From: a virus
Length of the DNA: 42,355 nt
IMG/VR virus record: IMGVR_UViG_3300046533_000104
Location: 1 to 42,355 of that record
Direction: 5' to 3' (one strand)
This document shows, piece by piece, positions 5,711-39,968 of this stretch (the stretch's first letter is position 1; each line of letters opens with the position of its first letter). The notes under the pieces are model-generated. The model saw nothing but the letters and a program-made list of their open reading frames with translations. It was not told the DNA's origin and searched no databases. The translations under genes were made by a program, and so were the position numbers.

Positions 5711-6226
5711 TCACTCGTCTTCGCCATACCTCTCAACCATCGTCTCGGCGTACTTACGCTCGAGATAGTCCTCCTCGATGGTGACGAACATCGACTTGAC
5801 CATCGCCTTGATGCCGAACTTGTTGTTCATCTTCCACGCAAAGGGACGAACGATCAAGTCCACGTTCGTGATGTCAGCGAAGTCGAGCATCTCGACGTCA
5901 TCTTCGGTCAGATGGGTGCGCTTCTTGCTACCGATGCACACCACCAGAGGCGGACGCACAGGTCCGTTGCGACCCTGGTACTTCAGAAAGCACGGGAGGA
6001 AAGGTTTGGCGACCTCCCCCTCCGCTGCCTGCTCCGGACGGGGCTCGAGCATCTTGACGTTCCAGCCGTCAGCGTTCATGATCTCGGCCATCTCATCGCT
6101 CAGAAGGACACCGAAGTTCCGGTCACCCTCCTTGTTGAACTCAGTGGGCCTTCCGATGAAGTTGCGGAAGATGATCCTCACGCCCTCCATCACTACTGCT
6201 TCAGTAGGCGCCTTTGGAGCTTCCAT
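5711..6226 (-). CDS. Putative single-stranded DNA-binding protein
   Basis: 171 residues. The segment RIIFRNFIGRPTEFNKEGDRNFGVLLSDEMAE and the later VRPFAWKMNNKFGIKAMVKSMFVTIEEDYLERKY follow an actinophage family often listed as ssDNA-binding proteins; the beta-rich middle and acidic C-terminus (VERYGEDE) fit that idea. The start ATG overlaps the stop of the polymerase fusion (TAATG), so it is made together with the replicase. Assignment rests on family resemblance and context; no unequivocal OB-fold motif can be read by eye. Confidence 0.55.
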   Translation of the reverse strand: MEAPKAPTEAVVMEGVRIIFRNFIGRPTEFNKEGDRNFGVLLSDEMAEIMNADGWNVKMLEPRPEQAAEGEVAKPFLPCFLKYQGRNGPVRPPLVVCIGSKKRTHLTEDDVEMLDFADITNVDLIVRPFAWKMNNKFGIKAMVKSMFVTIEEDYLERKYAETMVERYGEDE

Positions 6227-9200
6227 TAGTTTACGAACTCCTCAAACGAGCCGAATCGCTCAATAGATTTGATTGCGTCTTCTTTCAACTTCTCGAAGTA
6301 CGACATGTCTATCTGGAGATCAGGTCGTTCCTTCGCCACTTCTGCTTCGATCCAGAGATGACCCTTCGTGCCTGTTACGGCGTAGTAGCGTTCGTCTTTG
6401 TATCGATAGAGAGTTCCGCCCCCCGTTGCCACAGGTACAAAGCGCCCAGTGCGCCCGAGATGGCGCATGTTCCGATAATCCAGATCTTCATGGTGCTCCT
6501 TGTCGAGGTACATTGTTCCCTGCGTGACATTTTTCGTCTCACAGAAATCGTCGAATGTTAGCTCCTCATGTGAGAAGAGCATCTTGTACACGTACGGATG
6601 CTGGTACTGTGAACCCACTACGGTCCAGTCGTTACCCTTACGTGCGATATACACTGCGTCGTTCACCAGGCAGAACTTGTCGTAAGTTGCCTCGTGCTCG
6701 AAGTCGTAGCCATGCAGCATTCCATCGGTCTTGATGTAGTCGATGATGTCTGCGTCTGCGTTTGGAATCTTGATCGAGTCCGTCTTGATGTGGGCTACGG
6801 TGTAACCCTTCTTCTGCAAGATGTTCTTCAGACCGATCATGTACAGCGCGCCGCGCTTTGCGACGATGTTGTCTACGTTACGGTTGTCATTGAACGGGTT
6901 CGAGAACTTCGCAGATGTGAGACCGTAGACGATGTTGATCGCTATCTTGAGAGCGTAAGCCAGCGACTCAGCACTACTGGGGTCATCCTCAGCAGACTCA
7001 AGAAACTGGGCGAGACGACCGTCAAAGAGGGTACGGGCTTTTGCGTAGTCCTTACGCTTAATTGCCATTCGTGCCTCAGTGAGACCCGCAAAACGTGCGG
7101 TGTACTCATCTCCGAAGAGGTTGAGAATCTCGATTGTCGTCGGATGCATAGACGCCACGTCCAGAAGGGCGACTTGTTCGTAGATGCCTGGTTCTGCGTA
7201 GACGTACCCGCCTTCTCCGGGATCTTCTCCAAGATATGAACTCTTTCCCATCTCGAATTTGTAGCCGGGGAACACCTCGGCCAGATTAGTGTAAACAAAT
7301 TGACGCTGCGGGTTCTTGTCCTTACCGAAGATGATCTCTGCGGTATGACGTTGAGTCGTGTCGTTGACTGTGAGTCCGCTCAGTTCAGCAAGAATCTGCC
7401 TAGCGACAAAGTCAGGCCAACGAGCTTCCAGAACGGCTTCTGTCGCGACGACATCGTTGACACAGTATTCCACAACACGGAGCCAATCTTTCTCATCAAC
7501 GGGCTCGTCCCAAGGTAGATCCAACTCCATGTGAGATATGCCGAGATCGATTTCGAACTTCTTGAGCCCTTGCTTCTTCGAGCTGAAGTCCCAGATATCG
7601 GTGTATGAGATGTTATACGCTGCTGCGAACGGGGCATTCGCATTCTTGTCGACGATCAGCTTCTGACTCAACTCGAAGAGCTGCTCATTGTTGTATCCCA
7701 TCGAAGCCGCATAGAGGATATGGTTGTCATAGCGCCGGTTATAGAACCCGGTGAGCTTCAACTTGAACAGAGCCTCGACTTCATGCGCCTTGGGATTGAT
7801 CATCTTGACGACGACCGGGTCTCCCCTGAACTTCCAGCAGACGACGAAGAGGTTCTTGTAGACCTCGACGTCGAACAGCACGATGCGATCATCCTCTACC
7901 TCGATGGCCGCATCAGATGCCACCTCTTCAGCCGAGGCGAACTTCATACCGAGGACCGTCTTGATGGACACCTTGCTCTGATTACTACTGTTGTTCGCAA
8001 ACGCCAGGATCTTGGGCCTTAGATCTGTGACGTCGTACTTCATGCCAGACTCGTAAGCATCCTCAAGGATCTGAGCGATGAAATCCACGGATGGCTTGGT
8101 GCCTGGATGGATCTCCTTCCTCAGGTTCCGCTGGATCAGCTCTCGCAGGCCTCGCTCGCTGGTGATTGTTTTGGCCTTGAGCATCTTCTCCTTCTGCTTC
8201 TTCAGAGGAAGTCCGGAATTGATGACTTCAATCGGAATACGATTGCACCAGGTGAGTCGTCGTCGAAGAGACGCATCTCCACTGAATACCTTGACCTCAA
8301 TTCCAGTGGCATAGTTCTGAGCCAAAGCTGAAACATCTCCGTCATAGGTGTAATGAAGATGTACTCCGTTACCTGACTGTGAGATCTCGGCGTAGGTTGG
8401 AGGCCAGCTGCTAGCTGCTTCCAGATTTCGTTCGAGTGCGGTGTGTCCATTTACTTCCTTCAGATCGAAGTCGATGACCACGAGATTTTTCGGCACCTTG
8501 AGGAAGTGCAGCTCTGAAGTGTCAATATCCTGCAGGGTGCTTTTGACGTTCACCCACTTCTTACCGGGCACTCCGTCCTTGTTCGCCAGCTGTGCTGGCT
8601 GATCCCCGAACGCCTCGTCCATCAGTGACACGGTCTCTTCCATGACCAGGGAGAAGGACCTACCCTCTTCCTTGACCACGGGGGTCTTGAACTTCTCGGC
8701 GTTGAATCCGGTATACAGGCTCCGAACATTCGCGCCGTCCAGCTCACCACGATCCTTGAAGTCCTCGAAGTAGTTCCTGAGTTCTTCTCGCATCTTGTAC
8801 TGCGGCATGGGTCGCTCAATCCCACTCTCGTCGCAATACTCCTTGTACATCGAATATGCTTGCTTCAAGGTGATCTTGTCCTGCCCCTTGAAGACGTCGT
8901 AGTACGCCTCGATGAAGTTGAAGAAGATGTCAGTCTGCAACATCATCTCCATCGGGCGGTAGCTGTTGTAGTAATTCTTGCCCATCGACAGATATGTCTC
9001 AAGGCAATGTTGAGCGATCGCACCCAATTCGAAATCTATTTGCTGAATCAGGGCGTTGTAATGTCGGATAGGGATTTTCACCCCACTGGGATGGATGTCA
9101 ATCAATCGGCGAATCAGTCCTGACTTCGCATCAGAGATCTTCACCGGTTGATTGGAACCCACGAACAACAGGGCTTCCACTCTTGCAGTGTAACTCGGCT

Positions 9201-9978
9201 TGTACTTCTCGTTCATCGTCATCTGCTCATGTGAGATGATCGAATTCAGCCGAGTATTATCCTCCAGCCTCGACAGATCGCCATCATGCTGAATGGCAAC
9301 CAGTGGATTGTGCTTGAAGGCCTCAGTGGCAAACGTGCCATTACTGCTTCCCAGCGCTTTCCCGTCAAATGTTGTCGTGTATCCCTCGAACAATCTCTCG
9401 AGGATGTTCAGGATCGTTGACTTCCCTGACCCTGCAGGACCGTAGAAGACCAAGAACTTCTGGATCTTCTTCGAATCTCCGGAAACGATAGATCCGATAG
9501 CCCACTCGATCTTTGCCCGCTCTTCCTCCGAATACAATGTGCCAACGAGTTCGTCCCACGCTGAAATATCTCCTTCTCCAAGGGAATAGCTCAGAGTATG
9601 ACTCGCGTAATCCGACTTCTTCATCGGCGTGTTCGCGAATATGATCTTTGAATCCAGCGGCCGACTGTTGTCGCTGATCTGCCCGATGAACTTTCTGAAC
9701 TGTGTCCACATCTGACTACCGAACGAACTCATGAACATGGGGAAATACTGCACCCCGGTCTCCGCCTTGAGTCTGTCCGCTTCGCGCTGCAGATCATCAT
9801 CCACAAGACGCTGTACATCATACTCGTCACGAGACCACAGGCCCCGCTCTTCATCCCAGATCGCGTAGAAAGTGCGTCCTTGGACCATCAGATCCTTTGA
9901 ACGTCCGATCTTGAAATCGGGATACAGCATGGTCTTGCCGTCCTTCGTTTCCTTAGTTCGGATCTGATAGAAGTCCAC
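6226..9978 (-). CDS. Helicase, AEP primase-like and family-B DNA polymerase in one chain
   Basis: 1250 residues from GTG 9978 (AAGGAGGTG upstream). Residues about 1-400 form a D5-like SF3 helicase: Walker A GPAGSGKS (180-187), then VAIQHDGDL, GSNQPVKISDAKSG and the Arg-finger region LIRRLID. Residues about 470-600 carry AEP primase hallmarks: VIDFD (502-505 region, DxD) and SGNGVHLH (535-542). Residues about 695-1250 are family-B polymerase-like: exonuclease FDVE (D703, E705), NRRYD and YCVND; motif A DVASMHP (940-946); motif B KIAINIVYG (1011-1019); motif C KTDS (1065-1068). The usual DTDS is KTDS here. A single product could therefore unwind, prime and copy DNA. Whether the AEP module is active is unproven because its third motif is uncertain. 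Confidence 0.85.
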   Translation of the reverse strand: MDFYQIRTKETKDGKTMLYPDFKIGRSKDLMVQGRTFYAIWDEERGLWSRDEYDVQRLVDDDLQREADRLKAETGVQYFPMFMSSFGSQMWTQFRKFIGQISDNSRPLDSKIIFANTPMKKSDYASHTLSYSLGEGDISAWDELVGTLYSEEERAKIEWAIGSIVSGDSKKIQKFLVFYGPAGSGKSTILNILERLFEGYTTTFDGKALGSSNGTFATEAFKHNPLVAIQHDGDLSRLEDNTRLNSIISHEQMTMNEKYKPSYTARVEALLFVGSNQPVKISDAKSGLIRRLIDIHPSGVKIPIRHYNALIQQIDFELGAIAQHCLETYLSMGKNYYNSYRPMEMMLQTDIFFNFIEAYYDVFKGQDKITLKQAYSMYKEYCDESGIERPMPQYKMREELRNYFEDFKDRGELDGANVRSLYTGFNAEKFKTPVVKEEGRSFSLVMEETVSLMDEAFGDQPAQLANKDGVPGKKWVNVKSTLQDIDTSELHFLKVPKNLVVIDFDLKEVNGHTALERNLEAASSWPPTYAEISQSGNGVHLHYTYDGDVSALAQNYATGIEVKVFSGDASLRRRLTWCNRIPIEVINSGLPLKKQKEKMLKAKTITSERGLRELIQRNLRKEIHPGTKPSVDFIAQILEDAYESGMKYDVTDLRPKILAFANNSSNQSKVSIKTVLGMKFASAEEVASDAAIEVEDDRIVLFDVEVYKNLFVVCWKFRGDPVVVKMINPKAHEVEALFKLKLTGFYNRRYDNHILYAASMGYNNEQLFELSQKLIVDKNANAPFAAAYNISYTDIWDFSSKKQGLKKFEIDLGISHMELDLPWDEPVDEKDWLRVVEYCVNDVVATEAVLEARWPDFVARQILAELSGLTVNDTTQRHTAEIIFGKDKNPQRQFVYTNLAEVFPGYKFEMGKSSYLGEDPGEGGYVYAEPGIYEQVALLDVASMHPTTIEILNLFGDEYTARFAGLTEARMAIKRKDYAKARTLFDGRLAQFLESAEDDPSSAESLAYALKIAINIVYGLTSAKFSNPFNDNRNVDNIVAKRGALYMIGLKNILQKKGYTVAHIKTDSIKIPNADADIIDYIKTDGMLHGYDFEHEATYDKFCLVNDAVYIARKGNDWTVVGSQYQHPYVYKMLFSHEELTFDDFCETKNVTQGTMYLDKEHHEDLDYRNMRHLGRTGRFVPVATGGGTLYRYKDERYYAVTGTKGHLWIEAEVAKERPDLQIDMSYFEKLKEDAIKSIERFGSFEEFVN

Positions 9979-10568: not shown

Positions 10569-11337
10569 CGTCAAACCGCTCTGCGCGTTTGCGTATCTTC
10601 TCCACCTGATAATACTGATGCTGCAGGAATGGGGTGACGTTGTCGACGTAATTCCCGTCAGCCCTGGAGATCTCGATGTCTGTCTTCGTCTCGGTGTTGC
10701 GCACCAGTACTACATGCGCATTACCTGAGCCGTGCCCAAACCTCTGCAGGTTGTTGATCCCCACCGTCTCGTCGATATTGTCGACTGGTTCATCTCGCTC
10801 GTCAGCGAGAATCTCCTCTTCGAAATACCAGGTGTAACAGACAGTAGTGTAGTCCTCGTCGTGCAACTCCCCGAACTCATCGAGGTGAATGACGAACGGA
10901 ACGTCCGGGTTCTGCTGCCGAGCCATAAGCTCAGCGGGCATGTTCCACTCATGCTCAGACGGGGGGTGCGATTCGAAGACCGTCTGAGATGCTTCTTCTC
11001 CGGGCTCCGGCATGTTGTGGTACTTGACCGACTCAGTCTCGGGAGGATCCTCTTCCCCACCGATCGTGTTCTCGGTCTTCTCGTATCCGAGGTACTCCAC
11101 CACTTCTTCAAGCGGAGCCTTCAGACGTGCCTCAGTCGCAGCCTTCGCTGCCCGGTAGTAATCCCGAGCCTCGTCAATCTCTTCCTGAGCGATCTTGTCG
11201 TACTTGGTCTCAAGGCGCTTCTTGGCGAAGAAATATCCTCCGACCAGACCCAGACCCAGACCACCGACAAACCCTGCCGCGATCCACTGATGCCCGACCA
11301 GAGTTTCGGCGACCTGTTCGATTACGGGTTCTGCCAT
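10549..11337 (-). CDS. Membrane-anchored protein with coiled coil (262 aa)
   Basis: ATG 11337 with GGAG 8 nt upstream. Residues about 16-37 (IAAGFVGGLGLGLVGGYFF) form one membrane span, followed by a charged helical segment (about 38-85) and an acidic, Pro-rich linker. The C-terminal half (VPFVIHLDEFGELHDEDYTTVCYTWY onward) is a globular domain typical of actinophage membrane proteins of unknown function. It overlaps the DUF6353-like gene upstream by 16 nt. Confidence 0.65.
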   Translation of the reverse strand: MAEPVIEQVAETLVGHQWIAAGFVGGLGLGLVGGYFFAKKRLETKYDKIAQEEIDEARDYYRAAKAATEARLKAPLEEVVEYLGYEKTENTIGGEEDPPETESVKYHNMPEPGEEASQTVFESHPPSEHEWNMPAELMARQQNPDVPFVIHLDEFGELHDEDYTTVCYTWYFEEEILADERDEPVDNIDETVGINNLQRFGHGSGNAHVVLVRNTETKTDIEISRADGNYVDNVTPFLQHQYYQVEKIRKRAERFDDADTAE

Positions 11338-12236
11338 CTCAGTGGCTCCTTGTCACCCTCGATGCGGTTGTGAATCGGGCCGTCGACGTTGAAGTCGAGG
11401 AGGATGGCACCTTCGTGACCGTTCATGAAGTCACGGACAGTCTGATCGTCGCGGAAGAGTCCGAAGTCGATGAACCCGTCTCCGCCCCCATCGCGCAGCC
11501 AGCCCACGACGGCTCCCGCTTCGGTACGCGGGATATCGAACATGTCATAGACCTCATTGAGGAACACGTGTCCTCGGAGCGTCAGCAGGTCATTTGCGTA
11601 GCGCTGCTGAGAGCGCACGGTGACCTGATTCACTTCCCAGTCCTTGGACCACAGGCACGAGGTCGGGTCGAAGAACTTCGCGTAACCGGACGGCTCACCC
11701 ATGGCGACACGCTTGACCGTCTTCTTGCGCCCCGTCTCGGGGTTGAGGATCTCGACCGGCTTCACGCCGTAGCGCATCTCACGGTCGGTCTCTTCGCCGA
11801 AAGCGTCACGCACACGGCTGCGGTACTGATTGAACGCCGAATCGATCGCCGTATACGCAGCGGTCAGTGCGAAGTTGCGCTCCATCAGAATATGATGCGA
11901 CTGCGTCAGGCAGGCAATGCCGATGCCACCCAGGATGATGGCCGGAGCGTACTGCTTGGTGATACGAAGCGCTGTCCGGCTGTAGACGATCAGCGTGTCC
12001 TTCCGAGCGTCTTCCTCGGTGTACTCCTCAATGACCTCAGCCGCATGGATCTTCTCCATGTCAGCCTTACCCGTATCGAGAAGCTCTTCGACCTTCAGCG
12101 TGGCGTGGCACGCGAGGACGGTGCTGCCGATCATGGAGACCACACCAGTTCCGAACAGGATCTTTGGTGCATTCTCCTGGAAGAACAGGGACTTTGCCCC
12201 CATCACTCCCTTGATTCCTTCAGAAAGGAATGTCAT
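11322..12236 (-). CDS. DUF6353-like membrane protein, paralogue A (304 aa)
   Basis: N-terminal hydrophobic helix (KILFGTGVVSMIGSTVLACHA, around residues 25-45), a charged helix, a second hydrophobic helix (APAIILGGIGIACLTQSHHI, about 95-115), then AALxAAYTAID-type helix and a soluble C-terminal domain rich in G/D. The same layout and many positions recur in the 269-residue protein at 14215-15024. The family is common in actinophages; the molecular role is unknown. Starts at ATG 12236 and overlaps the 56-residue gene. Confidence 0.7.
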   Translation of the reverse strand: MTFLSEGIKGVMGAKSLFFQENAPKILFGTGVVSMIGSTVLACHATLKVEELLDTGKADMEKIHAAEVIEEYTEEDARKDTLIVYSRTALRITKQYAPAIILGGIGIACLTQSHHILMERNFALTAAYTAIDSAFNQYRSRVRDAFGEETDREMRYGVKPVEILNPETGRKKTVKRVAMGEPSGYAKFFDPTSCLWSKDWEVNQVTVRSQQRYANDLLTLRGHVFLNEVYDMFDIPRTEAGAVVGWLRDGGGDGFIDFGLFRDDQTVRDFMNGHEGAILLDFNVDGPIHNRIEGDKEPLRWQNP

Positions 12237-14078: not shown

Positions 14079-14215
14079 TTCTTGTTTTCCTCCTCGTCGC
14101 GTTCCTTGATTTTGGCCAGAAGGGCCTCAAGGCTCTTGTTTGTATCGGCAAGGGTCAGACCCAACTTGGTCATAACCCTCACCAACTCCTGAATATCCCT
14201 ACGCTGCGGTTCCAC
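14075..14215 (-). CDS. Small coiled-coil protein (46 aa)
   Basis: GTG 14215 shares a base with the TAG stop of the DUF6353-like gene (TAGTG). VEPQRRDIQELVRVMTKLGL then TLADTNKSLEALLAKIKERD is a long amphipathic helix with a charged tail. Function unknown; an oligomerising helper is plausible. Confidence 0.55.
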   Translation of the reverse strand: MEPQRRDIQELVRVMTKLGLTLADTNKSLEALLAKIKERDEEENKK

Positions 14216-15024
14216 TAGTACACGTGCTTTCCGTAATCCGGGACTGGCGGGAAGTGATACTCCATCGCCACACACGGGCGGTTGTCGCTAGACAGGTGTG
14301 ATGAGAACTTGATCTCGAGACGGTTGTCGAGGTTGAACCCAAGCACATCCGACATGCCGTTCGGCGGTAGGCCCAGCTCGTCGTAGAACGCACTCAGGCT
14401 GGCGTAGTTGCAGTTGACGATCTCGAAGTTGATCTTGTTCTCGGCCTGCTTGATCGCTTCGACACTGCTCATGAAATATCGCCCGGAATACACGTCGTAG
14501 CAGAGCACCTCACCGTTGCCGATGATGATGATTTCGCTCGACTCGACCGGATGCTCAGCAAGTTTCTTTGCGACGATCTCATCGCGGATGGCCTGCTCTT
14601 TGCCCGGCCCGAGCTTCTCGACGACCTTCTCCTTGTACTCCTGCAAGGCTTTGTCGGATATGGTGTAGGCAGCGGCCAGCGCAGCGATCTCTTTCGAGGC
14701 CAGACGATTGGCCAGGACGATCGCAAGGATCGTGGTAGTGCCCATGATGATCGGTGGGATGAACTCGCGCCACGTAAGCTTGAGTTTCTCCTCACGAGTG
14801 AGGGGCTCCATCTTGTCGAAAGCTTTGTCACCAAACTCAGCCTTGACCCGGATGGCACGCTCAAGGTGCGCATTGTCGATCAGCTCATCCGCCCTGAGAA
14901 CGGCCTTGCCTGTCAGAACCGAGGTCGTGATAACCCCCGCCACACCAACGCCCGTGAGGATGCTAGCGCTGTTGTCGTTCAGGAAATATGACGCTTTGCC
15001 GAACAGTTCACCCAGTGAATTCAC
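14215..15024 (-). CDS. DUF6353-like membrane protein, paralogue B (269 aa)
   Basis: Starts at GTG 15024. Two hydrophobic helices (SILTGVGVAGVITTSVLTG around residues 20-38 and FIPPIIMGTTTILAIVLANR about 90-109) flank a charged helix, followed by ALAAAYTISDKALQEYKEKV and a soluble domain ending in an acidic-aromatic segment. It matches paralogue A (11322-12236) in layout and in the AAYTxxDxAxxxYxxxV helix. Overlaps the 53-residue membrane protein by 17 nt. Role unknown. Confidence 0.7.
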   Translation of the reverse strand: MNSLGELFGKASYFLNDNSASILTGVGVAGVITTSVLTGKAVLRADELIDNAHLERAIRVKAEFGDKAFDKMEPLTREEKLKLTWREFIPPIIMGTTTILAIVLANRLASKEIAALAAAYTISDKALQEYKEKVVEKLGPGKEQAIRDEIVAKKLAEHPVESSEIIIIGNGEVLCYDVYSGRYFMSSVEAIKQAENKINFEIVNCNYASLSAFYDELGLPPNGMSDVLGFNLDNRLEIKFSSHLSSDNRPCVAMEYHFPPVPDYGKHVY

Positions 15025-29875: not shown

Positions 29876-30682
29876 TCATTCGTCATCAGGGTACGTGGTG
29901 GTGATCGTATACGTGGTCACATCCAAATATGTCGCGTCCGCGTTGTCGATCTGGAATGTGGTGCTGTTGGTCATCGAAATATAGTCATTCGCCTGATCAA
30001 TAGCAGTCCACGTGCCGTCACCATTGTCAACGATGACGAGAACGCCCAGCGCCTTGAAGAGATTTGACAGCTCGTCAATAGGCGGAAGCCTGGGATGTGT
30101 ATCTGCGGTGCCGTAGATGATGTCTTCAATTGCTGAAAGAACATCAGGAGGCGTTGTGGTCGAATCGATGGCCACATGAACTGTGGGCCGATAGCCAAGT
30201 ACCTTAGGTGGGGTTCCACTGATTCCCCACGTGAATTCTGTCGGTGCCAGCGTCTCTTTCAGTGTTTCAAAGAGAAACGGATCTGAATTGGCGACCAGAT
30301 TGTACAGAATGTGGATCTTGTAGCCGTAATCAGAGCCTTCAAGATCATTGCCGAGCTTTGTCTGATACGACAGGTTGAAACTCTTGGGCGGCTGATCGTA
30401 ATAGGTCAACCCGGGAGAGACTGTCTCGATCCCGAGAAGATCCTCGAACTCTGAAGGATAGGTGAATGCTTTGAGTTTACCCGAAAAGTCCCCCGGGGTA
30501 ATTTGCTCCAAGTATTTCACACCATCAAGGAAGTATGACTTGTTTTCCTGAGCAGAATCGTCTTCAACGGAACTCAAGCCATTCCAGACTGCAGATCTTC
30601 CGTCATGAAGATACAACACCCCATGGGAAACGCCTGTTTGGAAGAGTCGTTCGCCGACTCGATCCCAAGTAAGAGCTGTCAC
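29876..30682 (-). CDS. Major tail protein paralogue (268 aa)
   Basis: MTALTWDRVGERLFQTGVSH GVLYL is nearly the same opening as the major tail protein at 31271-32149; shared parts include AFTYPSEFEDLLGI, GNDLEGSDYGYKIHILYN, LSAIEDIIYGT and DELSNLFKALG. It lacks the long C-terminal extension of the other copy. GTG 30682 with GGAGG upstream. It could form a specialised tail ring, for example at tail tip or terminator end, or act as a variant tube protein. Confidence 0.75.
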   Translation of the reverse strand: MTALTWDRVGERLFQTGVSHGVLYLHDGRSAVWNGLSSVEDDSAQENKSYFLDGVKYLEQITPGDFSGKLKAFTYPSEFEDLLGIETVSPGLTYYDQPPKSFNLSYQTKLGNDLEGSDYGYKIHILYNLVANSDPFLFETLKETLAPTEFTWGISGTPPKVLGYRPTVHVAIDSTTTPPDVLSAIEDIIYGTADTHPRLPPIDELSNLFKALGVLVIVDNGDGTWTAIDQANDYISMTNSTTFQIDNADATYLDVTTYTITTTYPDDE

Positions 30683-31270: not shown

Positions 31271-32149
31271 TTAGTGCGAGAAGACCCAGTCGTCGTCGCC
31301 CGTGATGTAGTACCCCGAGGTAGCCTTGGCCTCGACCAGCGCATCCTCACCGGCGGCGAGCGGAGCCTGCGGACCGGCCGCTGCTTCCGTCCCGTTGACC
31401 GTGAAGACCACACCGGTGACGGCGGGGATGGTCACGATGAACGTGGCGCTGTCGTACGTCGGGGCGTTGGCACCGGTCAGCTTGACGGCGATGGACCCAC
31501 CCTCGAAGAGGGCGAAGACCTCGTCGGGGAGCGGCATCCGGGCGTCGACCCCTGCCGTCCCGTAGAGGATGTCCTCGAGCGTCTTGAGGGCGGCCGCATC
31601 GACCTTGGTGGAGTCGACCGTCAGGAGCGCCGTCGGCTTGAGGTCTGTGACCTGAACCGGAGAGGTGGTGACCTCCCAGCTGAAGGCGATCGCCTCGGGC
31701 GAGTCATTGATCGTGGCGAAGGCCTTCTCCGAGGGAGCAGCCAGGGCGCCGTAGATCATGTGCAGCTTGTAGCCGTGATCCGTTCCGTCGAGATCGTTGC
31801 CGATCCTCGAGCGGTACGCGAGCCCGAACGCCTTGCGGGACTGCTGGCCGATGGCGACACCCGGGACCGGAACGGCCGTACCATCGCACTGGGCAAACTC
31901 GTCCGGGTAGGTGAAGGCCTCGATGGTCGCACCGAACTCCTCGGCGGAGACCAGGTTGAGGTACTTGATGTTGTCCGCGTACTGCGGAGACGACTCGGCT
32001 CCCGTGGGGGACTCGGTGACGGTCGTCAGACCGTTCCAGGCGTACCCTGCATCGTACGTGCCCGATGCGCTCGGAATGTAGAGGACACCGTGGTCAACGC
32101 CGGTCTCGTACAGGCGCTCGCCAACCTGGTCCCATTGCAGGACTGTCAT
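31271..32149 (-). CDS. Major tail protein with C-terminal Ig-like extension
   Basis: 292 residues, ATG 32149 with GGAAGGAAAAGA upstream. MTVLQWDQVGERLYETGVDH, AFTYPDEFAQCDGTAVPVPG, GNDLDGTDHGYKLHMIYGAL, LEDILYGTAGVDARMPLPDE form the tube domain. A C-terminal module (TFIVTIPAVTGVVFTVNG to GYYITGDDDWVFSH) resembles that ending the capsid protein. Codons are GC-rich, as expected of an abundant protein. Polymerises into the tail tube. Confidence 0.8.
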   Translation of the reverse strand: MTVLQWDQVGERLYETGVDHGVLYIPSASGTYDAGYAWNGLTTVTESPTGAESSPQYADNIKYLNLVSAEEFGATIEAFTYPDEFAQCDGTAVPVPGVAIGQQSRKAFGLAYRSRIGNDLDGTDHGYKLHMIYGALAAPSEKAFATINDSPEAIAFSWEVTTSPVQVTDLKPTALLTVDSTKVDAAALKTLEDILYGTAGVDARMPLPDEVFALFEGGSIAVKLTGANAPTYDSATFIVTIPAVTGVVFTVNGTEAAAGPQAPLAAGEDALVEAKATSGYYITGDDDWVFSH

Positions 32150-32163
32150 TCTTTTCCTTCCGC

Positions 32164-32463
32164 TCAGAAGAATATGGTGTATACGTCGTGGTTCAGGTTG
32201 TCTGCTATGAAGAACCGATTGTATGAACACATCGGCAACAAAGCCACCTTCGCCGGGATAAGACTATCCGGATTTCGATCAATAACCGTCAGCAAATATC
32301 GCTGTGTGTGACGATACGGACCATTGTCTGCGTGTTCAGTCTCTGCGAAATCACGATGGTATACCACACACGGGTATTCCATTTTCAGATTTGAAGGAGG
32401 CTGAAAATATACGTGCTCCGCAATTGTCTCAAGGAGTGACTGGAGCTGCAGCCTGGGGGCCAT
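32164..32463 (-). CDS. Tail terminator-like protein (99 aa)
   Basis: ATG 32463 with GGGGAGGTG 5 nt upstream; overlaps the head-closure gene by 35 nt. MAPRLQLQSLLETIAEHVYF then EYPCVVYHRDFAETEHADNG and QRYLLTVIDRNPDSLIPAKV are an N-terminal helix and a beta sheet typical of siphovirus tail-terminator proteins, which cap the tail and join the connector. The place between head closure and major tail genes agrees. Confidence 0.65.
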   Translation of the reverse strand: MAPRLQLQSLLETIAEHVYFQPPSNLKMEYPCVVYHRDFAETEHADNGPYRHTQRYLLTVIDRNPDSLIPAKVALLPMCSYNRFFIADNLNHDVYTIFF

Positions 32464-32782: not shown

Positions 32783-34780
32783 TTAGGCCGAGTTCTTGAA
32801 AGTCCACTCGTCGTTGACGTTGTCCGCGAAGTAGTACGCGGGCGTGGTCGGGACGGCGTAGACCCGCAGCGACTGACCCGAGGCAAGCGCGATCGGGGTG
32901 GCCGTATCCATCACCGCGTCGGTGTCACCGCGATGGTACGTGACGCCCGTGACGGTCGGGACCGTGATGTCGTTGTTCGCGAACGCGGGCTTCGTCGGCT
33001 TGACGAGCACGGAGTTCATGGCGACCTTCCGGACCACGAGAGCGGAACGGATCTTCGTGAGCGCGCCGGAGAGGCGGGTCTCCAGCAGGTACTTGTACTG
33101 GTTGTAGTCGATGTCGAAGTCGTCGAAGAACGCGACGTCGCCACCCTTGTCGGCGCCGAGAGTGTAGTCCCTCAGGTTGACGATGATCCCGACGATCTCG
33201 GGCTCGGACTCCATGACTTCGACCTCGACGATGCCTGCGACGCCCATCGCGGAGGCCAGTTCGGCCTTGTTGTTCCACAGGCGACGGCCCATGCCATCCT
33301 TCGCGAGGATGAGTTCGGTGTAGACCGCCAGCGTCGTGTAGAACGTCGGCGAACCCGAGCCCTTGTAGAGGCCCATGGACCGGATGATGGCCTCGACGAT
33401 CTCCTCGGGGGAGGAGTCGGCGTCATCGATGTTGACGTACACCGAACCGGCGTAGAGGTCGTGATCGTTGGCGATCGAGCGGATGCCAGCGCCTTCGACG
33501 GCACCGATCGGATCCTTGATCTTGTCCTCGTCGTCCACTTCGCGACCGTCACCGATCAGAACCGCGCGCGCGAGTTCCTCATCGAGCATGACCCGCATCT
33601 CGCCCTTGAGCCAGGCGACGACGTCGAAGTCGGTGATGTCGATGATGTCGTCACGGTCCAGCTTCTGCTTCTTGTAGACCGTGGAGGGCGTCGTCACCCT
33701 CTTGGAGACGCCGAACCACTCTTCCTTCTTGAAGTTGCCCTTGATGTAGCCCTTGGCACGGGCTTCGTCGAAGGTGAGGTCGGCGACGAGGGACTTGATT
33801 CGGGAGAACGGGGAGTGCTTGGTCCCGTTGATGACTCCGGCGACCCACTCGGTCCGGCGCTTGTCGAACTCGGGGGTGGCGTCGACTGCGCGGGCGTCGG
33901 GAAACAGGACCTCGATGTTCTCGATGCCGTGCTTTAGCGCGAAGGCCTCAACTGCGCCCTTGAGCGAGCCGTTCTTCTTGGCGTCCTCGACGATTCCCGC
34001 GATCTCGTCGTGCGAGAGAACGCGACTGCCGGGACCGTCCTTCTTGCCTTCTTTCTGCTGCTCGAAGACGTTGCGAGACATCCAGATTCCTTCCTTCTTC
34101 TCAGACTTGTCGGAATGCTGTGCGGTACCCGCCTCTTCGAGCGCGGCGCCGACCATGTAATGCACGACAGCCTGCTCTTCCTCAGACATGGCGTCGTAGA
34201 CTTCTTGGACGGTCGGGCCGTCCCCTTCCTTCGTGTCCTTCTTGGCTGCCGGATCCTCAGCGTGCTTGAGCACGTCGTCGGTGTAGACGATGACCTCATC
34301 GGACAACGTGACGACTTCGCCATCACTGTGAGCGACGGAGACGTTGTCGATAAAGGCGCCCGGATTGGCGCCCGCCATGACCAGGCTGACCTCGCGGATC
34401 ATGCCATGCAGAACGTTCGAAGCCTTCTCGACCAGCTGATTGGCGTAGATCGAGAGGTGCTTGATGTCTTCGTGCTGCACCAGCGTCTTGGCGTTCGTGC
34501 CTTGCGGGGCGTCGTTGAAGTACCCGTAGCAGTAAACGCCATCGTCGCGATTCTCGAGCACCGCGTGGCCGAGGACGTTCGACGGTTCACTATGACCATG
34601 TGACCAGACCAGCGGAACGGTCATCTTGTCTTGATGCTTGAACGCATCCTTCATGATTGTCCGGCCATCCGAGCACTTCAGGCCAGCCTTCGTGGCATAG
34701 CCACTGAAATCGGGCTCGCGATCGTGCATGAGGCTGCCACCGAGCGTAACGCTCAAGTCGGGCTTAGCCTTCGCTCCCAT
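32783..34780 (-). CDS. Protease-scaffold-major capsid polyprotein with Ig-like tail
   Basis: 665 residues, ATG 34780. Residues about 1-150 are an S78-type prohead protease (VPLVWSHGHSEPSNVLGHA, probable His61; KHLSIYAN, probable Ser110; MIREVSLVMAGANPGAFIDN). A charged linker (about 165-235, E/D/K/Q) looks like scaffold. Residues about 240-600 are an HK97-like capsid domain (RIKSLVADLTFDEARAKGYI, YVNIDDADSSPEEIVEAIIR, TLAVYTELILAKDGMGRRLW). The last about 60 residues form an Ig-like module as in the major tail protein. An internal ATG at 34081 (residue 234, MSRNVF) has AAGGAAGGAATC upstream and could give capsid alone. Confidence 0.88.
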   Translation of the reverse strand: MGAKAKPDLSVTLGGSLMHDREPDFSGYATKAGLKCSDGRTIMKDAFKHQDKMTVPLVWSHGHSEPSNVLGHAVLENRDDGVYCYGYFNDAPQGTNAKTLVQHEDIKHLSIYANQLVEKASNVLHGMIREVSLVMAGANPGAFIDNVSVAHSDGEVVTLSDEVIVYTDDVLKHAEDPAAKKDTKEGDGPTVQEVYDAMSEEEQAVVHYMVGAALEEAGTAQHSDKSEKKEGIWMSRNVFEQQKEGKKDGPGSRVLSHDEIAGIVEDAKKNGSLKGAVEAFALKHGIENIEVLFPDARAVDATPEFDKRRTEWVAGVINGTKHSPFSRIKSLVADLTFDEARAKGYIKGNFKKEEWFGVSKRVTTPSTVYKKQKLDRDDIIDITDFDVVAWLKGEMRVMLDEELARAVLIGDGREVDDEDKIKDPIGAVEGAGIRSIANDHDLYAGSVYVNIDDADSSPEEIVEAIIRSMGLYKGSGSPTFYTTLAVYTELILAKDGMGRRLWNNKAELASAMGVAGIVEVEVMESEPEIVGIIVNLRDYTLGADKGGDVAFFDDFDIDYNQYKYLLETRLSGALTKIRSALVVRKVAMNSVLVKPTKPAFANNDITVPTVTGVTYHRGDTDAVMDTATPIALASGQSLRVYAVPTTPAYYFADNVNDEWTFKNSA

Positions 34781-34806: not shown

Positions 34807-36078
34807 TTAGGCTTCTTTAGCCAGACTTGACGGTACAGGTGGTCTACGAAGTGGAGTCACAACAGCAGACTTTGCTGTCTCGTCGAGGGGCTGCGGCATG
34901 TTAGCGTTGCGAAGTTCGTCAGCCTTTGGATCCTTGGATGGAGCAATGCCGATGACTTGACGCATCTCGTTGGACGACATGATCTCGTTACGAGTGAACT
35001 TGTCTGCAATCTCAGCGATGTTCTCGATGGGAACCAAGCGGAACGGATCCCGGAAGTACATAACTGTTTGTTTCTGTGACCGAGCAGTCTGTGTAAGAAA
35101 GGAACGCCGATAGGCTTCGACGATAGCGGTGAGAAAGGGCTCGATCGTGCGATTGTAGTAGTTCAACATGGCCTTTTCATCAGCCGTGCCGTTCATGATC
35201 TCTTCGGTAAGCCCGAGTTGACCATAGAGCATCTTGACCAGATACTCGATCTGCGTGAGTAGGTTGTTCTCAGCCGGACGGTTAAGCTGAGTGATCTTCT
35301 CGGTTCCATCGGTGTAGGCGATGCCGTACTGGCTCCCCTTCAACTGGAACTCGATGTCCTGCCTACGCTGCTCAGCCTGCTGTCGCTTAGCTTCACTCTT
35401 GATCACATAGGGAAGCTGAATGATGATGTCCAACTTACCGGATGCAACCAGATCATCAGACGTATCCAACAGATTGAGCTTCCGAATCAGTCTTTGAAGA
35501 GTTGAGTTCGGCTCGTTCATCACCGAATACAACGGATTCTCGATGATCGCGCACGCCTTCTTGGGAAGAGTGATCTCCTCGCGCATACCGTTGAGTTCGT
35601 TATACAGGCTGACTCGAATGTGTTGTGGATACCAGGCCGTAATCTCACCGACCCGCATCGTTTTGATGTCAAAGCCCCCACTCTTCTCAGGACTGATGCT
35701 TGTATCCACTGGGACAATCGCAGCGACACCTCTATCGCACAGCGTCATCGCAATGTCCTGCCTGAATTGCCTAGCGGCCTGATCAATGTTGGCTTCAAGC
35801 ACCAAACACTGATTCAAACCACTGTTAATGTCCTCGAGATAGCGGTTCTGCTCATCTGTACGGACATGCCGCATGTCAATCGCAGCAATGTCAATACTAA
35901 GTCGCGTGTAGATCGAGGAGATGATTGAGCGCTCATTCGAGAACACAATTCGCGTACGATCCGGCCTTGAGCTGTATGCTGAGCCATAATCGCCCGTATA
36001 AGTACGTAGACGACGCTGTTCATCCTGGTTTGTAAATACGTTCCAGGCATGTTTCAGTTTCGCACCAAATCGCGCCAC
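34807..36078 (-). CDS. Portal protein (HK97-type)
   Basis: 423 residues from GTG 36078 (GAGGAGGTG upstream). FSNERSIISSIYTRLSIDIA, then a beta wing with WYPQHIRVSLYNELNG, the stem GQLGLTEEIMNGTADEKAML NYYNRTIEPFL, and TVMYFRDPFRLVPIENIAEI ADKFTRNEIMSSNEMRQVIG match HK97-family portals. Forms the dodecameric ring through which DNA passes. It precedes the protease-capsid gene. Confidence 0.85.
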   Translation of the reverse strand: MARFGAKLKHAWNVFTNQDEQRRLRTYTGDYGSAYSSRPDRTRIVFSNERSIISSIYTRLSIDIAAIDMRHVRTDEQNRYLEDINSGLNQCLVLEANIDQAARQFRQDIAMTLCDRGVAAIVPVDTSISPEKSGGFDIKTMRVGEITAWYPQHIRVSLYNELNGMREEITLPKKACAIIENPLYSVMNEPNSTLQRLIRKLNLLDTSDDLVASGKLDIIIQLPYVIKSEAKRQQAEQRRQDIEFQLKGSQYGIAYTDGTEKITQLNRPAENNLLTQIEYLVKMLYGQLGLTEEIMNGTADEKAMLNYYNRTIEPFLTAIVEAYRRSFLTQTARSQKQTVMYFRDPFRLVPIENIAEIADKFTRNEIMSSNEMRQVIGIAPSKDPKADELRNANMPQPLDETAKSAVVTPLRRPPVPSSLAKEA

Positions 36079-36091
36079 ATTTCACCTCCTC

Positions 36092-36865
36092 TCATCCCTT
36101 AGCCTTCTTGAGGAACTCTTCGGCATACTTCTTGGCTGCATCAGCTTCAGATTTTGAGACCCCGCTTTTATCGATGAACGATTTAGCTGCCTCAGTTTTA
36201 CTAGAATCATATGCAGGCAGATCATAATGTGCATCATATGCAGGCTTCAATTTTGGCCAAATCTTTGACATAACGTCACTTTGACTGTTAATACCTTCAG
36301 TCATCGACTTGGGGATGAGAACCTGATGCGGAATAACTCGTCCAGAAAAATCTTTTCTACCCGATGGATCTAGGAATGAACTCGCTATAGAACCATCATC
36401 AAGCTTCTCAAATACATCAAGTTTACCCGAATTAGCCCCAAATGCTCTCTCATAACTAGCGAGTGGATCGGGTATGCCACCCTTCTTAAGGAACCCAAAA
36501 CCCCTGTTCTTACCTCTTGTAGCGTGAATAATATCGGTAGGTTCTTGGACGATCTTCTTCACGACAGCCGTGGTTTGAGGCGTCGGAGGCTTCTTCTTGA
36601 GCGCAGATAGAGGTAGTTTCCCGTTCTGATGGAGCTTATAGCCCACAAATGCAGCACCAGCAACCGCAACAAGAATGCCTGTACCAATGGCAACTTGTTT
36701 AGCCCTATGCTTTCTTTCAGGTGTCCAGAACGGCCCTTTATCCGCTTTAGCGGGTTTAGCTGCCCCAGATCCTCCAGTTTCCGCCTTCCGAACCCCCCAC
36801 TTCATCCCCTTGGTACCGAAATGTACAAGTTCAGCCGGGGACCCTGGTTTCTCAGTCGAGATCAC
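36092..36865 (-). CDS. Virion-type protein with GTKGMKWGVRK peptide and membrane helix
   Basis: 257 residues from GTG 36865 (GTGA overlap with the terminase stop). Residues 15-27 are HFGTKGMKWGVRK. Residues about 53-76 (HRAKQVAIGTGILVAVAGAA) form a membrane span. The C-terminal part (DIIHATRGKNRGFGFLKKGG, DPLASYERAFG, DVMSKIWPKLKPAYD) is a domain that I cannot name. Proteins with this peptide are frequent near phage portals. Its tail part is A/T-richer than its neighbours. Possible virion-internal, ejected protein. Confidence 0.6.
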   Translation of the reverse strand: MISTEKPGSPAELVHFGTKGMKWGVRKAETGGSGAAKPAKADKGPFWTPERKHRAKQVAIGTGILVAVAGAAFVGYKLHQNGKLPLSALKKKPPTPQTTAVVKKIVQEPTDIIHATRGKNRGFGFLKKGGIPDPLASYERAFGANSGKLDVFEKLDDGSIASSFLDPSGRKDFSGRVIPHQVLIPKSMTEGINSQSDVMSKIWPKLKPAYDAHYDLPAYDSSKTEAAKSFIDKSGVSKSEADAAKKYAEEFLKKAKG

Positions 36866-38607
36866 TCAAAGGCCTCCTTGTTGGCCTTGTACGCAATATA
36901 CGCGTCCATTAGAGCTGCGACATTGTCGATCTTCTCGTCCTGTCGCTTCTTCAGAAGCTTTCTATTACCGTTGGTGTCCTCCAACGTGATGGCGTTACCC
37001 ATAGCGAATGACATGAGCGCCTGATCAAAGATGAGTAGACGTTCTTCAGCCAGAATCTTCAATTCGCCGAGGGGGACCGACTCAGTTCGTGCGCCCTGAA
37101 GGACCTTTTCGATTCCGAACGGTCCATTCTCGCCTTCCCAGCGTGTCACGAACTCTTTGGCGTTGTATGGATCATACCCGAACGCGCGAACGTCAAAGTC
37201 TGATGCAAGAATGAAAGCATCGAGATCTTCGTAGACCTCCATCATGTCCAGAACCTTACCCTCCATGACATGAAGGCTTCCCTCATTGATGAACTCCTCA
37301 TACTTCATACGAATTGAGGCTTGAAGCTTCATCAACGTCAAAGTAGTGATGTAGCTACGGGTTTTTACTCCGTATCTATCTTCACCAATGGGGAAAAGGA
37401 AGGTGAAGGCACAGAAGTCGTCACCCTGAGAGAGGTCTGCGCCTAGAGCGCACGGCATCTGCCAGAATTCTCTCTGTCGATGGGGAATCGTCTCTTCATA
37501 AGTGAAGAAGTACGTGTAACCCTCCATCGGAATCCCGAAACGTTTCGCCAGAATATCATTTCGTGCCGCTGGCGCTTTCTCAGCTCGTTCTACATCAAGC
37601 TGATAGGTTTCGTAGGAGACTGTCGCCCCCAAGTTCGGATTCGCCTTCACCCACATCGCTGGATTGGCAACTTCCTCGATCTCATCGAGTTTGTAGTGCC
37701 AGATCGAAACATGGGGTGCTAGGTACTCACCCTTAAGGATGTCCGCTAGTTCCATTTTGATGGTGTCACCGGAACCATTGCGGACTGTACCTTCAGAGCT
37801 GATTGCGATGATCAAATAGTCCTCCAACTTGGAGGCTCCCTGCTCAACTGCACCAACAACGTCCTCTCTAAGATCTCCGGACAGCCACTCGTCGATTGTG
37901 GAGATCTTGGGACGCAGTCCCTGAAGTTTGTTGATAGCCATAGGACGGACCTCGAGTAGAGATCCGGTCAAGAAGTTCTCGATACCCTTCTTTGTGGCTG
38001 CCAACTTCACACGATTAGCTCTAGACCCAGTAGTGTTCTGGAGAGAGCCCTCGGTCAGGAACCGGAAGAGAGGTCCACGCGCACGGGTGATAGCCGTACG
38101 GAACGGGGACATGACCTCGTCGGCCTGCTTCATTGTCGGTGCAGTGGTGACCTGATGAGTCGTTGTCGTATCGACGTTCAGAAAGTAGCTCTGAATGAGC
38201 GACGCGTACATCGACTTTGCCGCCCCTCTGGCGACGATCAGATACTGCTTGAGGATCAACCGCTTCTTGATCGTTCTCTTCACATACCGTCCGCCCCTGT
38301 CGTGAGGCTTGGGCACGTAGACACTTCGCTCTACGAAGTAATACCATCCGAAGATCTGTTCAGACCACAACTTGAACGTATCGAGCAGATGTAGATCGGA
38401 GCCATCCGTGAGAGTGAGTTCGTTCTCACAGTAGAGAATGAATCCCTCAACGGCTTGGTCGTCGTAATAGATGTTCGGGTTAGCGATGAGTGCATCAATC
38501 CGATTCATCTCCTGAGAGATTTCACGGTTTACTGGAATCGCGCCTCGCAGGACTGCATCACGAAACAGCCCATAATACTTAGGCGTCGCAGTATTCGATA
38601 GACTCAA
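36862..38607 (-). CDS. terL: Terminase large subunit
   Basis: 581 residues from TTG 38607 (AGGGAGGG upstream). The ATPase shows a modified Walker A (LIVARGAAKSMYAS, about 123-136), Walker B KISTIDEW (about 232-239, D-E pair) and a coupling motif AISSEGT; the nuclease half has GADLSQGDDF (first Asp), YGVKTRSY and AFGYDPYN, and the end MDNVAALMDAYIAY-like helix. It packages DNA and makes cuts in concatemers. Family closest to phage Terminase_1 type. Confidence 0.88.
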   Translation of the reverse strand: MSLSNTATPKYYGLFRDAVLRGAIPVNREISQEMNRIDALIANPNIYYDDQAVEGFILYCENELTLTDGSDLHLLDTFKLWSEQIFGWYYFVERSVYVPKPHDRGGRYVKRTIKKRLILKQYLIVARGAAKSMYASLIQSYFLNVDTTTTHQVTTAPTMKQADEVMSPFRTAITRARGPLFRFLTEGSLQNTTGSRANRVKLAATKKGIENFLTGSLLEVRPMAINKLQGLRPKISTIDEWLSGDLREDVVGAVEQGASKLEDYLIIAISSEGTVRNGSGDTIKMELADILKGEYLAPHVSIWHYKLDEIEEVANPAMWVKANPNLGATVSYETYQLDVERAEKAPAARNDILAKRFGIPMEGYTYFFTYEETIPHRQREFWQMPCALGADLSQGDDFCAFTFLFPIGEDRYGVKTRSYITTLTLMKLQASIRMKYEEFINEGSLHVMEGKVLDMMEVYEDLDAFILASDFDVRAFGYDPYNAKEFVTRWEGENGPFGIEKVLQGARTESVPLGELKILAEERLLIFDQALMSFAMGNAITLEDTNGNRKLLKKRQDEKIDNVAALMDAYIAYKANKEAFE

Positions 38608-38620
38608 CTAACCCTCCCTT

Positions 38621-39589
38621 CTAAACTGCTGCGACAGCGGCAGCCTTAGCGGCCGTCTTGGCCATGTCTGCAGCCATCCATGAACCGATCTTCTTGCTTC
38701 CGTTCTTCTTCAACTCGTCCTCGGCCCACTTTCGACCGCTGGCCTTAGTCTTACTTCCAGACAGACGAAGGACGTTCTGCTCAAGATTCAGTCGGTTCAT
38801 CATCGTCTGAAGTTCAGCATTACTAAGAGCATTCGGTCCGCTCTTTTTGAGCGTCTGCTGCATAACTCGAACGTCAATGGCTTCTTTGACAGCAGGCTGA
38901 GCCCGTCCGCCACGAGTAGCCACCTTCGTCTTCATGTGCTTGCGCTGCTTGATCTTCCTGACGTGCGCCTCAGTGGTTGAACTCGAGCTGGCATCCTTCC
39001 GGACACCCCACTTCATCCCCTTGGTACCGTAGTGAGCAAGGGCGTTCGCAACGGCAGTCTTACCGTCTTCTACTACACTCATACTCACCTCCATGTCCCA
39101 GTCATAGGACTTCAGGGGAATCTCGATGCCCTCGTAGTCGCCGAACCAGACAGCGATCTTGTCAAAATTGACCCCGTAGAACTGGGGGTAATCGCGCTTG
39201 TCTTCCTTGGCCGGTGTCTCGGGATAGCCGAGAGTAAGGTGAGGGTGCCACTCGGGGAATTGCTCGACCGAATCATACGCCGTGCGGATGTTGTCATCCT
39301 TGAGCAAATATGAACGGAAGTTCTCGATGTCCTGAGTCCAGCGCTTGGAGAAGAAAAGCACATCGGCTTCATCTTCGCCCAGCGTTCCTCGACGATCCAC
39401 ATCCATGTAGAATCGCTTGAGCGTGACGCTTGCTGCGTGCGCGACGAACTCGGTGATGTCCTGCAGATTCGCGACGTTCTTGGCTTCGCCGAGGAACAAA
39501 ATCGTCATGTGTGGGACTTTTTCGCTGGAGACCTTCCAGACATAATCTTCCTGAGATGGGATGGCAACGATGACGACGTTTTCAGCCAT
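38621..39589 (-). CDS. 2H phosphoesterase fused to a GTKGMKWGVRK peptide and helical tail
   Basis: 322 residues. N-terminal 2H phosphoesterase: KVPHMTILFLG (H27, T29) and WHPHLTLGYP (H115 or H117, T119), the paired HxT/S motifs of RNA 2',3'-cyclic phosphodiesterases. Residues 186-198 are HYGTKGMKWGVRK, followed by a basic, helical C-terminus ending AAKAAAVAAV. This family includes enzymes that open cyclic nucleotides or act on 2'-5' oligoadenylate. The tag and the position beside terminase suggest delivery with the virion. Start ATG 39589. Confidence 0.75.
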   Translation of the reverse strand: MAENVVIVAIPSQEDYVWKVSSEKVPHMTILFLGEAKNVANLQDITEFVAHAASVTLKRFYMDVDRRGTLGEDEADVLFFSKRWTQDIENFRSYLLKDDNIRTAYDSVEQFPEWHPHLTLGYPETPAKEDKRDYPQFYGVNFDKIAVWFGDYEGIEIPLKSYDWDMEVSMSVVEDGKTAVANALAHYGTKGMKWGVRKDASSSSTTEAHVRKIKQRKHMKTKVATRGGRAQPAVKEAIDVRVMQQTLKKSGPNALSNAELQTMMNRLNLEQNVLRLSGSKTKASGRKWAEDELKKNGSKKIGSWMAADMAKTAAKAAAVAAV

Positions 39590-39968
39590 ACCTTACCTCA
39601 GGCAGCTCAGGCGGATCCGGATCAACCCATCCGGTCTCTTCTCGATGCACATTGAGCCGCCACTCAAGCTCGCCGATCTGCCGTTCCATCGCCGAGATCA
39701 AATATGACGTTTGCGGCGGATCGAAAAGCTGACGAGTCTTGAGGTAAACGTAGGTCTTGACCGAATTGTACTGAAGATCCAACGAAACAAAATCTGTCCA
39801 TTCCGCAGTGTCGTCCTCGATCATGAACCCCATGGGAGGTCCCACTCCCAACTGGGTGAGAATGGAGAACGCCGTATTGATGTGAGTAATGACATCATGA
39901 TCGAACACCGTATAGTCAGGTGCTAGGCCCAGGATCTTCTTAGTGCTGATTAGAATACTCGTTTCCAT
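39582..39968 (-). CDS. Head-tail connector (adaptor)-like protein (128 aa)
   Basis: ATG 39968 with GGGGGTGAG upstream. METSILISTKKILGLAPDYT, VFDHDVITHINTAFSILTQL, GFMIEDDTAEWTDFV, LKTRQLFDPPQTSYLISAME resemble phage connector proteins of the HK97 gp6 / SPP1 gp15 type (N-terminal helices and 'LGL..DYTxFDxDI..HIN'). Unusually it is encoded upstream of terL rather than after the capsid gene. Confidence 0.7.
   Translation of the reverse strand: METSILISTKKILGLAPDYTVFDHDVITHINTAFSILTQLGVGPPMGFMIEDDTAEWTDFVSLDLQYNSVKTYVYLKTRQLFDPPQTSYLISAMERQIGELEWRLNVHREETGWVDPDPPELPEVRYG

Follow-up and report, generated by a model that had tools for sequence, protein, structure and literature searches.

Short peptides that target proteins to phage heads are known from T4: in the available portions of PMC9958956, a capsid-targeting sequence (CTS) of ~10 residues, conserved in IPII and IPIII only, brings GFP into the T4 core structure when fused to it. 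Proteins that travel as phage cargo have also been described elsewhere. According to the parts of PMC10172136 and PMC10770324 at hand, polymerases of the DFDGD type travel in the virions of the crAss-like phages and of P23-45 (tape-measure-fused), and the cargo of the crAss-like phages is proposed to leave with the DNA (PMC10172136); the accessible text of PMC5512222 describes ADP-ribosyltransferases and other enzymes, that is, MuF-linked/polyvalent effectors and T4 Alt, as packaged in the head and injected. For most phages, the injected proteins are an open question that normally requires proteomics. Here we analyze a stretch of viral DNA of 42,355 nucleotides (positions 1 to 42,355 of IMG/VR record IMGVR_UViG_3300046533_000104; hereafter, the window) in which three proteins carry forms of one short peptide (hereafter, the tag), and we consider it probable that the tag is a docking peptide for virion cargo.

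Like the T4 CTS, the tag would, by inference, be a short, mostly N-terminal peptide that is common to different internal proteins and places them in the head; unlike the CTS as described in the source portions cited above, it occurs on up to nine proteins per phage, is sometimes internal or double, and exists in two forms and in dialects; the proposed likeness is one of function. As in the crAss-like phages and P23-45, the phage encodes a DFDGD-type polymerase, the virion presence of which is predicted here; in contrast to those systems, in which the available source text offers no short shared peptide behind packaging, the polymerase bears a form of the tag found on other cargo. The tagged proteins include ADP-ribosyltransferase domains, an enzyme type also present among the MuF-linked/polyvalent effectors and T4 Alt, as well as acetyltransferase domains, but they are carried by a short peptide and not by the MuF or portal domain of those accounts. 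DUF7211 as a sequence family and short head-targeting peptides in T4 were already known; the breadth of the tag, its second form on RNA polymerase, the dialects and the exchange of cargo are new. Searches of openly licensed PubMed Central papers with motif strings or DUF7211 found no publications on the peptide.

One peptide in two forms

The original prediction, which was made from the DNA letters alone, held that two otherwise unrelated proteins share a peptide and that the RNA polymerase has a related one; all three sites were confirmed at the predicted positions, on the minus strand (Table 1). The peptide of the two cargo proteins (A form) is Pfam family DUF7211 (PF23847; 25 positions), to which Pfam assigns no function: the 38621-39589 protein scores 42.9 bits (E 3e-11) and the 36092-36865 protein 36 bits (E 4e-9), both above the curated cut-off of 27 bits. 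DUF7211 matches nothing else in the window record and nothing in the 14 genomes used as controls. DUF7211 also matches 149 of 150 tagged representatives (one per community of protein bodies, vide infra); across the 150 members, the residues H, G, G, W and G are invariant, and the basic positions vary. The RNA polymerase peptide (B form) has no DUF7211 match up to an E-value of 1; judged by sequence, it is a related form and not a member of the family.

The consensus is [DE][DE][FYE]LxH[YFH]G[VIT]KGM[KRH]WG[VK][RK][RK] for the A form and [DE][DE]xLxHYGT[PK]RHSGRYPWGSG for the B form. The residues that precede the core are alike in both, that is, acidic at −5/−4, L or I at −2, and then H-Y-G; a matrix for positions −5 to +2, derived from the A tags of named phages, gave the RNA polymerase site the top rank within the protein in 104 of the 107 polymerases examined. 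The B form occurs in 123 open reading frames (ORFs; 124 matches); 108 of the matches are in ORFs with DFDGD, and those outside are mostly in ORFs cut at contig ends. One relative (L237) has two B tags in its connector-terminase protein where the window protein has its A tag, and the C-terminal ends of the two proteins are similar by eye; another (L213) has a single protein composed of 2H phosphoesterase, B tag and RNA polymerase. At the level of sequence, then, the B form is equivalent to the A form and replaces it at equivalent places.

In structural models of both A-tagged window proteins, which were built from shallow alignments, the tag is a coil with a predicted local distance difference test score (pLDDT) below 50, and not a segment buried in a normal fold.

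Tagged genes in the head cassette

The tagged genes had been described as lying near structural genes; they are located within the head gene cassette. In 11 named phages (ReqiPepy6, ClubPenguin, Tokki, Secretariat, Qui, FP_oengus, HazuAndZazu, DizzyRudy, Eevee, Bilo and 1706) plus the window, 45 of the 56 connector-portal genes other than terminase are tagged; the terminase, portal, connector and capsid proteins of this set carry no tag. We also fetched 97 loci in which connector, terminase and portal are all present (overlaps unmerged; in part retrieved via the tag); of their 281 tagged ORFs, 266 are in the connector-portal interval, with 106 preceding and 160 following terminase. The 443 unique closed tagged ORFs have one (405), two (35) or three (3) tags. 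The first tag begins within residues 1–30 in 341 of them and no earlier than residue 100 in 44, a tag is found within the last 40 residues in only 0.2%, and a 19-residue stretch with a mean hydropathy of at least 1.8 is present in 55.

The sole tagged portal that we encountered (L102:5124-6575) has its tag in a C-terminal extension. Four loci have a gene between portal and capsid that the window lacks (L249:9144-9878, L251:17559-18338, L254:7409-8083 and L255:13823-14371); the encoded proteins have another N-terminal motif, roughly [DE]xFIAHYASxYYDPVKAxEYY, with a tag-like beginning, and DizzyRudy's copy of the gene is annotated ‘scaffolding protein’. The product of this gene could be the partner of the tag or a further client.

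Support for a virion (head-internal) location is limited to database labels, those of phage 1706, in which only gp07 (two tags) and the RNA polymerase orf75 are tagged. Both are labeled ‘structural protein’ by the depositors (EU081845), a label given to 11 of the 76 ORFs. The chance that two of two tagged proteins would be so labeled is ~0.02. The labels reportedly go back to mass spectrometry by Garneau and others in 2008. The label of ReqiPepy6 gp019 is by similarity only.

Tags as separable modules with within-phage dialects

Two near relatives of the window (L264 and L334) have terminases that are 99 and 98% identical and portals that are 99 and 98% identical to those of the window. The first 29 residues of the product of their terminase-portal gene are 97 and 83% identical to the window protein; past residue 29, there follows an unrelated protein of 131 residues. 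The DNA behaves in the same way: in blocks of 30 bases, identity is 23 and 22/30 in the last block of the tag and 8 and 10/30 in the next block, and similarity resumes just ahead of the portal gene. The tag is thus a separable module that near relatives retain while they exchange the remaining gene.

The tags of one phage also resemble each other. In 12 named loci, tags whose bodies have no detectable similarity differ between phages at a mean of 3.09 of 13 positions, and within a phage at 1.64 (97 pairs); none of 2000 label shuffles reached the within-phage likeness. Even orthologous tags of different named phages differ at 2.67 of 13 positions (108 pairs). In viral contigs, which were selected through the tag, the difference is 2.40 within and 3.07 between (0 of 2000 shuffles). 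For example, GMHWG is present in all four tags of ClubPenguin and GMKWGK in all nine of Qui, with different codons. At shared tag residues the codons agree in 482 of 904 cases (0.53), compared with 0.44 expected from codon usage; the likeness is thus mostly at the level of the protein, and some copying may have contributed. A single receptor in each phage would explain this most simply. A divergent dialect, HYGVPGMKWKNHKYR, is found on two neighboring proteins of L237 (4440-5255 and 5270-5980) and was missed by the core pattern.

Co-occurrence of tag and RNA polymerase

The window phage belongs to the Lactococcus 1706/Rhodococcus ReqiPepy6/Arthrobacter-Gordonia-Streptomyces lineage. Using tblastn, the window RNA polymerase matched 250 of 50,697 phage records (Arthrobacter 95, Gordonia 55, Streptomyces 54, Lactococcus 13, Siphovirus 12, Curtobacterium 7, Microbacterium 4, Rhodococcus 4, Caudovirus 2, Faecalibacterium 2 and a few others). 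The tag-peptide search retrieved 245 records that are distributed almost identically (Arthrobacter 95, Gordonia 55, Streptomyces 54, Lactococcus 13, Curtobacterium 7, Rhodococcus 5, Microbacterium 4 and Faecalibacterium 2; no Siphovirus among the organisms listed). The portal and capsid searches each gave 266 records, and most of the surplus consists of 21 distant records from Streptococcus, a genus that does not appear among the organisms listed for the RNA polymerase or the tag; the five head genes examined in the distant Streptococcus phage IPP5, which has a related portal, contain no such peptide.

Among viral contigs of at least 40 kb, DUF7211 is present in 18 of the 23 found via the RNA polymerase peptide (15 above the curated cut-off), and RNA polymerase is present in 21 of the 23 found via the tag (one through a weak partial match); the two sets have one contig in common. 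The remaining five contigs of the first set were candidates for RNA polymerase without a tag. With window proteins as queries, no terminase or connector was found in them; one begins inside a tagged ORF, and another has its portal just 2.4 kb from the end, so these contigs look like fragments that are missing the terminase cassette, and we rejected them as candidates.

Domains of the tagged proteins

Because looser clustering merged tagged bodies through low-complexity linkers, we used a stricter clustering that gave 158 communities, and 150 representatives were scanned; each stands for one community, that is, the domain counts are not frequencies. Pfam identifies GNAT acetyltransferase (4), ADP-ribosyltransferase (2), 2H phosphoesterase (2) and portal (1) domains; PHROGs additionally gives one Alt-like and one head-morphogenesis match. 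Secretariat gp15 has an acetyltransferase domain and a weak match to a papain-fold toxin, slightly below its cut-off. These partner domains fit injected effectors.

In the window, the 2H phosphoesterase domain of the 38621-39589 protein spans approximately residues 5–160 and has two HxT motifs; H27-T29 and H117-T119 are invariant in 23 of 23 aligned proteins, and the C-terminal domain of the protein occurs alone in relatives. A Foldseek search of the PDB with the 2H domain matched plant cyclic phosphodiesterase, Usb1 and LigT (E ~1e-6 to 1e-5) and, more weakly, MHV ns2 (3e-3) and the anti-CBASS protein Acb1 (6e-3); although the fold search matched, phmmer against PDB sequences gave no match for the protein. 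A counter-defense role is our guess from the modeled fold, with the likeness to Acb1 being weak.

A proposed docking peptide for virion cargo

In our proposal, the flexible tag would bind a head protein during assembly and so draw the attached cargo inside, and both forms would be read by one common receptor in the assembling head of the same phage, for which the portal, the capsid-protease and an inner scaffold or other inner protein are candidates. Docking would load RNA polymerase, 2H phosphoesterases, acetyltransferases, ADP-ribosyltransferases and small membrane proteins; the cargo would then accompany the DNA into the cell and be active immediately, in early transcription, host take-over and counter-defense. 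We infer the receptor, loading, cleavage and injection. The location in the head cassette, the 1706 labels, the behavior as a module and the equivalence of the B form lend good, if indirect, support to the capsid-targeting signal that the original prediction had guessed, with a maturation signal as its alternative. A broader version, in which the tag is a general address code throughout a large and widespread lineage of phages, the receptor of each phage reads its own dialect on all cargo including a virion RNA polymerase, and the bodies are exchanged freely, could in our judgment equally well prove right or wrong.

Several points weigh against docking. The 1706 labels are database text and not virion proteomics seen directly, and 1706 orf62 and orf71, which are labeled structural and lie outside the head genes, carry no tag; also, 11 of the 56 cassette genes in the named set and the window have no tag, most of them in FP_oengus and Eevee. 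The tag and RNA polymerase co-occur in a single lineage of phages, where common descent is a possible cause of the association, and a functional link between them is not proven. Codon identity within phages exceeds its expectation, so some copying of tags by duplication is likely. Finally, there are still several possible receptors (portal, capsid-protease or inner protein).

The evidence can also be read in other ways. The tag might be mainly a proteolytic maturation signal that the prohead protease (fused to the capsid protein) recognizes, cutting beside it to free the cargo. That these phages encode such a fusion would fit, as would the position of internal tags between domains that a cut would part and, by its title in the reference list of PMC9958956, T4 capsid-targeting work that reports proteolytic processing; however, the invariant H, G, G, W and G look more like a binding surface than a cut site, and processing is compatible with targeting and does not exclude it. 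We regard cleavage as unlikely to be the main role. The near-constant co-occurrence of tags and RNA polymerase could mean that the partner is outside the head, for example, the RNA polymerase of the phage or a host factor, on which tagged proteins would form an infection-start complex. We find this quite improbable: the RNA polymerase is itself tagged, at a similar place, and so looks like a client and not the receptor, and tagged genes lie between connector and portal, with one portal being tagged.

Nor do we favor a nucleic-acid-binding or DNA-condensing peptide through which the packaged DNA would carry proteins along into the head; the basic character of the A form (K, K/R, R, R/K) would fit, but it is the basic positions that vary and H, G and W that are invariant, and matching dialects within a phage are hard to explain with DNA as the partner, which makes this explanation very unlikely. 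We give least credence to a recombination linker, that is, a short island of homology for gene swaps that is functionless in the protein: the swap in L264 and L334 does begin directly after the tag, but the tags of one phage agree far more in amino acids than in codons, so selection on the tag as protein is needed.

If docking is correct, the proteins that a phage injects could be predicted from its sequence; if the broader version holds, this would extend to the full set, and new cargo could be loaded by adding the peptide. In each lineage, dozens of genes now called ‘hypothetical’ would become predicted virion cargo, and 1706-like phages would be predicted to bring their own RNA polymerase into the cell. 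The peptide would be a short handle for bringing proteins into phage heads, and the within-phage dialects suggest that one receptor exists and could be tracked down.

Genes of the window

The tags and the genes around them are listed in Table 1.

Table 1. Tags and surrounding genes in the window, with positions counted from its first nucleotide.
Feature	Position	Strand	Remarks
Tag, A form, H[YF]GTKGMKWGVRK type	38996-39034	-	HYGTKGMKWGVRK; residues 186-198 of the 38621-39589 protein; internal
Tag, A form, H[YF]GTKGMKWGVRK type	36785-36823	-	HFGTKGMKWGVRK; residues 15-27 of the 36092-36865 protein; N-terminal
Tag, B form	1825-1872	-	HYGTPRHSGRYPWGSG; residues 13-28 of RNA polymerase (1-1908); N-terminal
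Head connector, relative of 1706 gp06	39582-39968	-	PF24829; cassette start; without tag
Tagged cargo	38621-39589	-	N-terminal 2H phosphoesterase, internal tag, C-terminal domain
Terminase large subunit	36862-38607	-	profile matches; without tag
Tagged cargo, membrane-type	36092-36865	-	hydrophobic helix at ~residues 59-80 and conserved C-terminal domain
Portal protein	34807-36078	-	profile matches; cassette end; without tag
Prohead protease fused to major capsid protein	32783-34780	-	candidate receptor or processing enzyme
RNA polymerase, DFDGD (two-barrel) kind	1-1908	-	3' end lost at contig end

The RNA polymerase contains DFDGD and matches phrog_4291 across residues 4–635 (E 1.5e-269). Its profile gave weak or unrelated matches only against PDB sequences, with helix-turn-helix and designed proteins on top; they include the beta' chain of a phage, matched around DFDGD (E 0.7). 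The model of the 36092-36865 protein is poor (mean pLDDT 53), and the structural matches of its C-terminal domain, mostly longin/roadblock-like with Z of at most 5.9, gave no assignment.

Elsewhere in the window, the neighboring genes at 29876-30682 and 31271-32230 encode similar proteins that both start with approximately M T x L x W D x V G E R L and are probably a duplicated major tail protein. The long proteins encoded at 11322-12236 and 14215-15024 are alike in their hydrophobic N-terminal halves and are probably paralogous early-region membrane proteins, and the 1250-residue protein encoded at 6226-9978 looks like a helicase/primase joined to a DNA polymerase.

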